Below are positions 7,476 to 9,473 of a stretch of 64,000 nucleotides of DNA, piece after piece. Position numbers and translations under genes: made by a program. Within the stretch, counting starts at the first letter, position 1. Every line of letters starts with the position of its first letter. Under the pieces are notes generated by a model. The model was not told the DNA's origin, did no database searches, and saw nothing but the letters and a program-made list of their open reading frames with translations. Source of the DNA: Parazoarcus communis SWub3 = DSM 12120 (GTDB lineage: Bacteria > Pseudomonadota > Gammaproteobacteria > Burkholderiales > Rhodocyclaceae); the NCBI RefSeq assembly GCF_003226565.1, contig NZ_QKOE01000015.1, positions 1 through 64,000 of the forward strand, in the 5' to 3' direction.

Positions 7476-8063
7476 TCAGTTGCGGCCCAGGCGGTAGACC
7501 GCAACACTGGCCAGGAAGTTGGCTTCGTCCTTGACCAGCTGGCCTTCGTCAAAGGCCAGCCGCTCGCGTATCGCGATACCGTTGATCTCGCACAGGGCCT
7601 CGAAGTCGGCAATGGTGAAGAAGCGTACGTTGGGCGTGTTGAACCACTGGTGCGGCAGGCTTTCCGAAACCGGCATGCGTCCGTTCAGGATGCTTTGCCG
7701 GTGTCGCCAGTAGCCGAAGTTGGGAAAGCTCACCACCGCCTCGTGACCCACCCGCAGCATCTCGGCGAGTATGCCCTGGGTGTTGTGCATGGCCTGCAGC
7801 GACAGGCTCATGATCACATGATCGAAGAATCCATCTTCGAAGTCGCTCAGGCCCTCGTCCATGTTGGCCTGCACCACGTTCACCCCGTTGCGCACGCAGG
7901 CCAGCAGCTTCTCCGGATCGTTCTCGACGCCGTAGCCCTGAACCTGCCGTACCTCCATCAAGTGCTTGAGCAGGCTGCCGTCGCCGCAGCCGAGGTCGAG
8001 CACCCGCTCGCCGGGTGTGATCCATTGGGTGATCACTTCGTAGTCGTAGCGATAAGCAGCCAT
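7476..8063 (-). CDS. metW: Methionine biosynthesis protein MetW
   Basis: MetW is a methyltransferase-fold protein encoded with metX in many proteobacteria and needed for efficient homoserine acylation. The 195-residue product shows the SAM-binding motif VLDLGCGDGSLL at about residues 20-31 and the MetW signatures VSFPNFGYWRHR and FNTPNVRFFTIADFE. It starts 2 bases after the metX stop, so the two form one operon under the metX riboswitch. Length and order agree with the family. Its exact biochemical activity is not settled in general. Confidence 0.95.
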   Translation of the reverse strand: MAAYRYDYEVITQWITPGERVLDLGCGDGSLLKHLMEVRQVQGYGVENDPEKLLACVRNGVNVVQANMDEGLSDFEDGFFDHVIMSLSLQAMHNTQGILAEMLRVGHEAVVSFPNFGYWRHRQSILNGRMPVSESLPHQWFNTPNVRFFTIADFEALCEINGIAIRERLAFDEGQLVKDEANFLASVAVYRLGRN

Positions 8064-8065
8064 GC

Positions 8066-9193
8066 TTACACCTTGATGCGGTCAAACCAGGCCGACAGCA
8101 CGGCATGGTAATGGGGTTCGTCGAGCAGGAAGGAGTCGTGGCCCGCTGCGCAGTCGATCTCGGCATAGCTCACGTTGCGCTGGTTGTGCAGCAGGGCGTA
8201 CACGATCTCGCGCGATCGGGCGGGCGAGAAGCGCCAGTCGGTGGTGAACGAAACCACCAGGAAATCAGCACTTGCACCCGCCAGCGCGGCCGCCAGATTG
8301 CCGCCGTGGGCAAAGGCCGGGTCGTAATAATCCAGCGCCTTGGTGGTCAGTAGATAGGTGTTGGCGTCGAAGTAGCCGGCAAACTTGTCGCCCTGATAGC
8401 GCAGGTAGGACTCGATCTCGAATTCGACGTCGTAGCTGTACACCGCCTTGCCGTGACGCAGGCTGCGGCCGAACTTTTCACCCATCGAGTCATCGGACAG
8501 ATAGGTGATGTGGCCGACCATGCGCGCCAGCTTCAGGCCCCGCGCGGGGACGACGCCATGCTCGTAGTAGTTGCCGCCGTGAAAGTCCGGGTCGGTCAGG
8601 ATGGCCTGGCGTGCGACTTCATTGAAGGCGATGTTCTGTGCGGTCAGCTTGGGGGCCGATGCGATGACCGCAGCATGGCCGACGCGTTCCGGGTATTGCA
8701 GCGTCCACGACAGGGCCTGCATGCCACCCAGGCTGCCGCCGACCACCGCGGCAAAGCGCTCGATGCCGAGCAGGTCGGCGAGGCGGGCCTGGGCGTCTAC
8801 CCAGTCTTCGACGGTGACGAAGGGGAAGGCTGCGCCCCACGGCTTGCCGGTGGCCGGATTGATCGAGACGGGGCCCGTGGTTCCGTAACAGCCGCCGAGG
8901 TTGTTGACGCCGATGACGAAGAACTTGCGCGTATCGAGCGGCTTGCCCGGGCCGACCAGATTGTCCCACCAGCCAATGTTGTCGGGCGTGTCGGCGTAGC
9001 GGCCGGCGACGTGGTGCGAACCGGACAGTGCATGGCACACCAGTACCGCGTTGCTGCGCGCGGCATTGAGGGTACCGTAGGTTTCGTAGACCAGGTCGTA
9101 GCTCGGCAGTACGCCGCCGCTGCGCAGTGGCAGCGGCGTGGCGAAATGCGCTGTTTGTGGCGTCACGACGCCGACCGATTGCGCTTGGATCAT
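8066..9193 (-). CDS. metX: Homoserine O-acyltransferase MetX
   Basis: MetX transfers an acyl group from acetyl- or succinyl-CoA to homoserine, the first committed step to methionine. The alpha/beta-hydrolase fold protein has the nucleophile motif GGSLGG (Ser near residue 150), the acid in TTDWRFSP (about 316) and the histidine in GHDSF (about 349). I use the ATG at 9193 (MIQAQSVG, 375 residues); an in-frame TTG at 9208 would start inside the leader terminator. Related betaproteobacterial enzymes are often annotated as succinyltransferases, but the acyl donor cannot be decided here. The upstream leader holds a SAM-II-like riboswitch, so expression should fall when SAM is abundant. Confidence 0.95.
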
Positions 9194-9210
9194 GGATGTC
9201 GTCTGCAAAA

Positions 9211-9250
9211 AACAAAAAACCCAGCCGGCTGCAAAAACGCGGACTGGGTT
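9211..9250 (-). terminator. metX: Intrinsic terminator in the metX leader
   Basis: On the minus strand AACCCAG plus CCG pairs with CGG plus CTGGGTT (one bulged base), followed by a run of six T. It lies between the riboswitch aptamer and the metX start, so it is the expected expression platform for transcription attenuation. Confidence 0.8.
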
Positions 9251-9251
9251 G

Positions 9252-9332
9252 CCCTCGCTTTAGCCGGATTTATTGAGCGCCCGCAAGCTATGGATCAAAT
9301 CGGCGCTATGGCGTGAAATTAGCTTGCGGACG
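9252..9332 (-). promoter_or_regulatory. metX: SAM-II-like riboswitch aptamer upstream of metX
   Basis: Minus-strand reading gives a 10-bp helix: CCGCAAGCTA (9329-9320) pairs with TAGCTTGCGG (9290-9281). The loop opens with ATTTCACGCC, and after the helix come CAATAAAT and CGGCTAAAG. This order (P1, loop starting AUUU, P1 prime, then AUAAAU and GCUAAA) is the SAM-II (SAM_alpha) consensus as I know it. The loop segment AGCGCC can also pair with GGCGCT just after the helix, which fits the pseudoknotted fold of the class. A terminator follows at once and metX is the next gene. The related SAM-V class shares this architecture and cannot be excluded. Confidence 0.82.
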
Positions 9333-9473
9333 GTGAAAAGTCAAACGAGCAGTCTTGAGCGCGCAGTGTGGTCGGGATGATCCGGGCGCATGTCATGCGC
9401 GCTCCCCGCAGGGCAAGGATCGATTCGGTAGCGTGGTAAGATTTTGCCTTGTGATTCCTCGCGCTGACCCCGA

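Follow-up and report, generated by a model that had tools for sequence, protein, structure and literature searches.

The window analysed here, a stretch of 64,000 nucleotides of Parazoarcus communis SWub3 = DSM 12120 (positions 1 to 64,000 of contig NZ_QKOE01000015.1), carries metX and metW on its minus strand behind a structured leader, and raises the question of which kind of RNA element controls these genes. In the direction of transcription the locus consists of a -35-like box, a 17-nt spacer, a -10-like box, an aptamer, a terminator, metX (8066..9193, with its ATG at 9193) and metW (7476..8063). The leader from 9307 to 9207 on the minus strand holds a predicted SAM-II-type aptamer, an antiterminator and an overlapping terminator, and appears, with a probability of about 0.88, to be a betaproteobacterial riboswitch of the SAM-II lineage that acts as an OFF switch for metX-metW. 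The ligand, S-adenosylmethionine (SAM), and the sign of the response are proposed by analogy with the SAM-II class. The target named in the preliminary description of the locus agrees with the NCBIfam matches, by which metX encodes a homoserine O-acyltransferase of the succinyl type (MetX_succinyl, 677 bits) and metW matches TIGR02081 (251 bits).

On the minus strand the aptamer reads AGCGCC-GAUUUGAUCCAUAGCUUGCG-GGCGCU-CAAUAAAUCCG-GCUAAA-GCGAGGG, followed by the terminator hairpin. In the register of the Rfam SAM_alpha (RF00521) alignment, and by the pair counts in two alignments described below (A1 and A3), the real P1 is AGCGCC (9302..9307) paired with GGCGCU (9276..9281). The loop L1 (9282..9301) contains the third strand GAUUU (9301-9297), the P2 strand GCUUGC (9288-9283) and G9282 (position 24), and matches the published invariant positions U10-U12, U20, U21, G22 and C23. 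The joining strand L3, CAAUAAAUCCG (9265..9275), includes C9266, which is able to pair with G9282 (pair 24-40), and a bulged G9265. Barrick and Breaker (PMC2258182) had predicted a pair of this kind, together with a bulged base, for SAM-II, and in A3 the pair is GC in 99, AU in one and something else in one of the 101 rows with letters. The 3' strand of P2 (9257..9264) is supported by conservation counts in A3 and comprises GCUAAA (9264-9259) and GC (9258-9257). It follows AUAAAU (9273-9268) in the SAM-II order, as the preliminary description had noticed. The 13 pocket positions described as fully invariant in SAM-II (U10-U12, U20-C23 and G42-A47; PMC3764141) are all present in the window.

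Conservation was assessed in a GTDB family sample of 101 genomes, 96 of which had a recognizable metX; leaders were read from 90 of these, and a motif search located the element in 63 of the 90, to which an earlier search added L011, L044, L053 and L090 (67 of 90). Alignment A1 comprises 46 of 60 distinct metX-leader rows, three rows with long inserts having been left out, and alignment A3 comprises 109 matches from 100 chosen loci. Each pocket position is kept in 107 to 109 of the 109 A3 rows, or in 107 or 108 of 108 where one row is gapped, with G42-A46 in all 109 and A47 in 108. P1 is nearly fixed as GCGCC/GGCGC across the family; in A3 five of its six pairs show changes on both sides, and its covariation score is 0.153 compared to 0.048 in shuffles that leave shared ancestry in place, none of 500 shuffles reaching 0.153 and no slid control exceeding 0.029. 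A covariance model (R1) built from 46 family metX leaders with P1 as the sole structure given matched (E ≤ 0.01) in 94 of the 101 family genomes, some of these matches being other SAM-II-like elements such as one upstream of metK; at class level it matched in 193 of 369 genomes and at phylum level in 51 of 249. R1 gives the window site 81.7 bits; as its training alignment includes the window row, the independent evidence consists of conservation, covariation and the reciprocal model matches given below. A DNA search of the genome for a second close copy of the metX element found none, the next best match having an E-value of 0.15. The gene downstream of the element is metX or metZ, and in class genomes metK or metF too; an NCBIfam check of nine class loci identified metZ (five), metK (three) and metF (one), and the element precedes metZ in Nitrosospira (L255) and Novimethylophilus (L242). 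In some relatives (L083, L086, L067), L1 or the segment behind P1 contains a long insert.

The aptamer is followed, as the preliminary description had stated, by an intrinsic terminator and then metX. The terminator stem CAACCCAG..CUGGGUU (9218..9251, -17.0 kcal/mol) runs into the U tract UUUUUUGUUUUUU (U6-G-U6, 9207..9219), and overlaps an antiterminator fold CCGGCUAAAGCG...GCAGCCGG (9225..9267, -21.1 kcal/mol) that belongs to the minimum free energy (MFE) structure of the leader and sequesters the pocket strand CCGGCUAAAGCG; the two predicted folds are mutually exclusive. A terminator-like hairpin with a T-run is found in 60 of the 63 family leaders. In 22 of the 63, versus 9 expected, the 90 nt downstream of the pocket strand contain a stretch of at least 6 nt complementary to it; in a wider set, a complement of at least 7 nt occurs in 20 of 106 versus 3.9 expected. 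In several class genomes, one arm of the terminator is, exactly or nearly, CCCGCUUUAGC, which is complementary to GCUAAAGCGGG or to the core of it.

In the proposed mechanism, transcription would start near 9309, just before P1. With SAM present, P1 and the pseudoknot GCUUGC (9288-9283)/GCUAAAGC (9264-9257) would close on the ligand with GAUUU as the third strand, and the pseudoknot would take away the strand 9267-9257 from the antiterminator, so that the terminator (9251-9218 and the U tract) would form and metX-metW would not be transcribed. With little SAM, the pocket strand would pair downstream (antiterminator, 9267-9225), no terminator would form and the methionine genes would be read. 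The competing folds support the earlier idea that SAM binding favours termination, with both ligand and sign assigned by analogy. A comparable response is reported for the SAM-II riboswitch of Sinorhizobium meliloti metZ, at which SAM lowers the mRNA and increases the riboswitch small RNA (PMC9373788). The same report describes effects of S. meliloti SAM-II switches on mRNA stability too, and one switch that acts on translation, which is the basis for supposing that the metX element works mainly through translation or RNA stability with the hairpin secondary. This is improbable, given that the terminator stem and U tract end ahead of the start codon, that the terminator-like hairpin is so widely kept in the family, and that complementarity between the pocket strand and the downstream platform is more frequent than in shuffles. 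A SAM-II-like aptamer for another metabolite, such as S-adenosylhomocysteine (SAH), methionine, homocysteine or a derivative, is equally doubtful: riboswitch variants can switch ligand, as do SAM-I variants that bind spermidine (PMC10853860), but the positions that contact SAM are all kept, including the two uridines that face the sulfonium, U44 and A47, and the genes under its control serve the synthesis of methionine and SAM.

Several results weigh against a SAM-II-type OFF switch, besides the shared ancestry that remains in the shuffled alignments. At curated cut-offs, no Rfam family reaches its cut-off anywhere in the window. A permissive search of a 601-nt stretch against 4227 families gave SAM_alpha as the best match, at full length and with AGCGCC/GGCGCU as P1, with 21.8 bits (E 0.013), which is below the RF00521 gathering cut-off of 36 bits and, taken alone, is marginal. 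A search of the whole genome with RF00521 listed three matches elsewhere, at 13.6-14.3 bits, and not the metX site, probably because it was dropped in the first pass of the search. Among six loci of the same class or order, only L222 passes the SAM_alpha cut-off, and three loci from other classes (L210, L211, L213) fall below it. A generic promoter and terminator scanner reported neither feature at the metX leader. The pocket pairs of P2 are formed in nearly every A3 row and are so nearly invariant that they show almost no covariation, and of the two P2 pairs that follow A47, one fails to form in 31 of 102 rows and the other in 21 of 106. The P2a helix measures about 2 bp, compared to 5 bp in 60% of SAM-II aptamers (PMC6061858). 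The antiterminator signal is moderate, with mean z-scores of -1.0 and -1.1, and the antiterminator duplex of the window (-14.2) was matched by 7 of 100 shuffles.

The Rfam scores are put in perspective by model matches in the opposite direction. R1, which contained no sequence from outside the family of the window, matched in 27 genomes of other classes, and at 11 of the 14 strongest of these loci the match lies at a site that Rfam calls SAM_alpha, at 56-67 bits. Closer to the window, the RF00521 cut-off is passed by a single locus (L029, 37.0 bits) among 20 from the family, 19 of which carry the element by motif, and by seven of 20 class loci, all of them in the two genomes G347 and G442. The elements constitute one lineage that is crossed by the Rfam cut-off, a threshold that misses most of the tested copies in this lineage. 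Because the window copy fails the cut-off, the metX element is described as a SAM-II homologue predicted to work like SAM-II rather than as an RF00521 hit. The SAM-II-like class proposed in the preliminary description is supported by pocket identity, P1 covariation and the reciprocal matches. Of the checks proposed there, the SAM_alpha model returned the best match of the stretch, although one below the cut-off; the SAM-V model (RF01826) gave no match at E ≤ 10; and the P1 of the SAM_alpha register proved to covary in related leaders. The lack of a significant covariance-model match, which was to count as refutation, is a misleading yardstick at this site, where the window copy lies below the cut-off and some homologues lie above it. 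A plain terminator leader that resembles SAM-II by chance would account for the subthreshold Rfam score and for the silence of the generic scanner, but is refuted in practice by the conservation of the element in the family and class genomes matched by R1, by P1 covariation and by the reciprocal SAM_alpha matches.

The promoter region decides against a different P1. The preliminary description proposed a 10-bp helix, CCGCAAGCUA/UAGCUUGCGG, around a loop beginning with AUUU. The complementarity of CCGCAAGCUA (9329-9320) to UAGCUUGCGG is real in the window, and the pairing is present in the MFE structure once upstream sequence is folded too. However, the 5' arm lies between the -35-like box TTGACT (9339..9344) and the -10-like box TAATTT (9316..9321), within the promoter spacer and the -10 box, and is therefore probably not transcribed; AUUU overlaps the -10 box, and the SAM-II loop is GAUUU from 9301. 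The 8-mer CCGCAAGC occurs within 60 nt upstream of P1 in one of 63 leaders, that of the window itself, and is missing from the same-genus copy G067. The 10-bp helix is rejected as P1, and a role for it in closing a larger loop, either as the aptamer stem or as an alternative anti-aptamer stem, is very unlikely. By a permissive criterion with no shuffled control, TTGAC and a -10-like box with a spacer of 15-19 are found upstream in 61 of the 63 family leaders, the best -10-like box ending 9-30 nt before P1 in these 61 and 9-16 nt before it in 55 of them. The metX transcript probably begins near 9309, a few nucleotides ahead of the AGCGCC/GGCGCU stem.

Compared to SAM-II (RF00521), the window element shares the H-type pseudoknot with P1, the 13 pocket positions, the order GAUUU/UUGC/GCUAAA, the methionine genes and the terminator platform, and differs in the ending of L1 (...CAGCUUGCG), the nearly fixed P1, the short P2a and the Rfam score. 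SAM-V has a nearly identical pocket and a short P2a as well (PMC6061858), but is translational and marine, with the Shine-Dalgarno sequence in the 3' part of the element, an arrangement unlike that of the window element, in which the aptamer precedes a predicted terminator and U tract. SAM-II with long loops (RF01726) was not among the matches at E ≤ 10 for the window or the metK element. A further counterpart in print is the metXZ element (Leyn et al. 2014, PMC4239095), which has six conserved regions and was published without a ligand. Like the window element, it lies before metXW or metZ in beta-proteobacteria and has a pseudoknot with a terminator and antiterminator; it differs as published, in that it is tied here to SAM-II. 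By its context and layout, the window element is very probably the metXZ element. Within the open-licence literature, the name metXZ was found only in Leyn et al. 2014, and none of the publications listed links metXZ with SAM-II. SAM-II with terminators in beta-Proteobacteria has been in print since 2007 (PMC2258182), and Beta is among the groups in which SAM-II is commonest (Meyer 2009, PMC2704228). The new step at metX is thus modest, the kind of switch being already known: it consists in connecting metXZ to the SAM-II lineage, by which an orphan element of beta-proteobacteria gains SAM as a ligand hypothesis.

The only other R1 match in the genome below E 0.01 (25.1 bits, E 6.8e-4) lies directly before metK, on the plus strand of contig C111 (L154, 1338-1434), 66 bp upstream of the gene, and is a SAM-II-like element with G at position 10. 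In metK leaders of the best 30 of 98 genomes, chosen by protein similarity alone, such an element is present in all 30; a pattern identified 29 of them, and the copy in L181, which has a longer L1, was recognised by eye. Its consensus in 27 rows (alignment A2) is CCGCC-GAGUUAA..GACAACUUGCAG-GGCGG, a variable linker and nAAAnUACUGCUAAAGCGUCG. A metK model (R2) matches in 97 of the 101 family genomes, and in 91 of the 98 that bear metK the match is followed, on the same strand and at a distance of 52-189 bp, by metK; the seven exceptions include two in which metK is cut at a contig end (G024, G056) and three in which its N-terminal part is missing (G035, G045, G052). Beyond the family, R2 matches in 75 of 150 order genomes and 23 of 369 in the class sample. 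The Rfam 15 SAM families gave no match at E ≤ 10 to the copy in the window's genome, and against metK-form loci none reached the cut-off at 20 loci or E ≤ 1 at 16 loci, with only SAH riboswitches nearby.

A pattern allowing U or G at position 10, run over named genomes, gave at least 82 matches in 80 loci, 31 with G and 51 with U. Among the matches listed, 27 of the 31 with G lie before metK and one lies before a weak metZ match on a Pelagibacteraceae contig, three having no assigned gene, and of the 51 with U, 10 lie before metX, 13 before metZ and none before metK, 28 having no assigned gene, with 4 of the 13 GAUUU-metZ and 1 of the 10 GAUUU-metX assignments being weak (29-36% identity). The rows with G10 include Burkholderia, Paraburkholderia, Caballeronia, Cupriavidus, Pandoraea, Achromobacter, Bordetella and Accumulibacter. 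G10 is not absolute: among 30 order-wide loci, U is found in 3 of the 20 classifiable metK loci, and GAUUU is found in the class metK leaders L141, L146, L147 and L152. Five of the 30 order-wide loci are not before metK, and at least three of these (L368, L377, L382) are the second members of tandems.

The structure of the metK form was evaluated in an alignment (A4) of 57 matches from 56 chosen loci, the named GAGUU rows of which were picked by the G-or-T pattern after inspection. The outer P1 pair is UA in 27, CG in 25, UG in 3 and AU in 1, the pseudoknot pair beside the pocket is AU in 32, GC in 21 and other in 2, and the pseudoknot GCAG/CUGC covaries with GCGG/CCGC. Out of 500 shuffles, none attains the covariation score or the count of double-changed cells (54), but 65 reach four pairs with double changes and 188 reach the pair-type count, and shuffling leaves relatedness in place. 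Behind the metK element, a terminator-like hairpin is present in 25 of 28 leaders from the family but in only 29 of 55 from the wider set. An antiterminator formed by the pocket strand, as proposed for metX, was rejected for the metK form, complements of at least 6 nt being found in 4 of 55 versus 8 expected. The stretch after the aptamer is complementary, over at least 6 nt, to the 28 nt that immediately precede the start codon in 43 of 79 versus 14.1, a count that mixes matches to terminator arms with matches to the ribosome site, the narrower first count having been 7 of 28; the complementarity reaches 14 nt in L384. This complementarity points to translation control of metK, alone or together with a terminator.

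In SAM-V, U8 bonds to the uridine that pairs with the adenine of SAM (PMC6061858), and is taken as the counterpart of U10 in SAM-II. G10 should therefore change the adenine layer and spare the sulfonium and aminoacyl contacts. Because some metK leaders keep U10, the same ligand is favoured for the metK form as for the U10 form. The metK element is likely an undescribed sister of the metX switch, a riboswitch derived from SAM-II and shared by the window's genome, almost the whole family and no less than half of the order sample. It usually has G in place of U10, retains P1 and the pseudoknot, has a variable linker after P1 and in many leaders could pair, through the stretch behind the aptamer, with the region before the start codon. 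As such it would be the regulator so far missing for metK in beta-proteobacteria, and its G10 would either rebuild adenine recognition or shift the ligand. In the account of metK in beta-proteobacteria by Leyn et al. 2014 (PMC4239095), no methionine regulator of the gene is known and attempts to find one were unsuccessful, a printed gap to which the metK element is a testable answer. No described metK leader RNA in these bacteria was found among the papers listed from the open-licence literature, supplements aside, which is no proof of absence. The natural change from U10 to G, at a pocket position reported as invariant, lends itself to testing how adenine is read by the SAM-II fold.

Other arrangements of these elements were observed. 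SAH riboswitches (RF01057) lie near metK and a SAM-II-like element in L141, L146, L147, L152, L155, L160, L183 and L386, and SAM and SAH sensors are therefore clustered at these loci. A U10-type aptamer is followed by a second SAM-II-like aptamer in L135, L140, L142, L264, L368, L377 and L382, the second being of the G10 type in the last three; tandem SAM-II as such is already known (PMC9481103). Some genomes have many copies, with 10 matches in G347 (L134-L138) and six in G460 (L139, L140), several of them before unrecognised genes. In L151, a SAM-I riboswitch (RF00162, 81.5 bits) and a SAM-II-type element lie within 300 bp of each other (121-234 on the minus strand and 450-511 on the plus strand); the 2007 survey reported no species with both SAM-I and SAM-II (PMC2258182). 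Elements with the beta-like GAUUU are found in alphaproteobacterial Bradyrhizobium, Bosea, Microvirga and Rhodoplanes (L248, L273, L276, L279, L295, L303, L310) and in metagenome-assembled genomes labelled Acidimicrobiia (L290, L313), possibly as a result of transfer or, in the metagenome-assembled genomes, of binning error.
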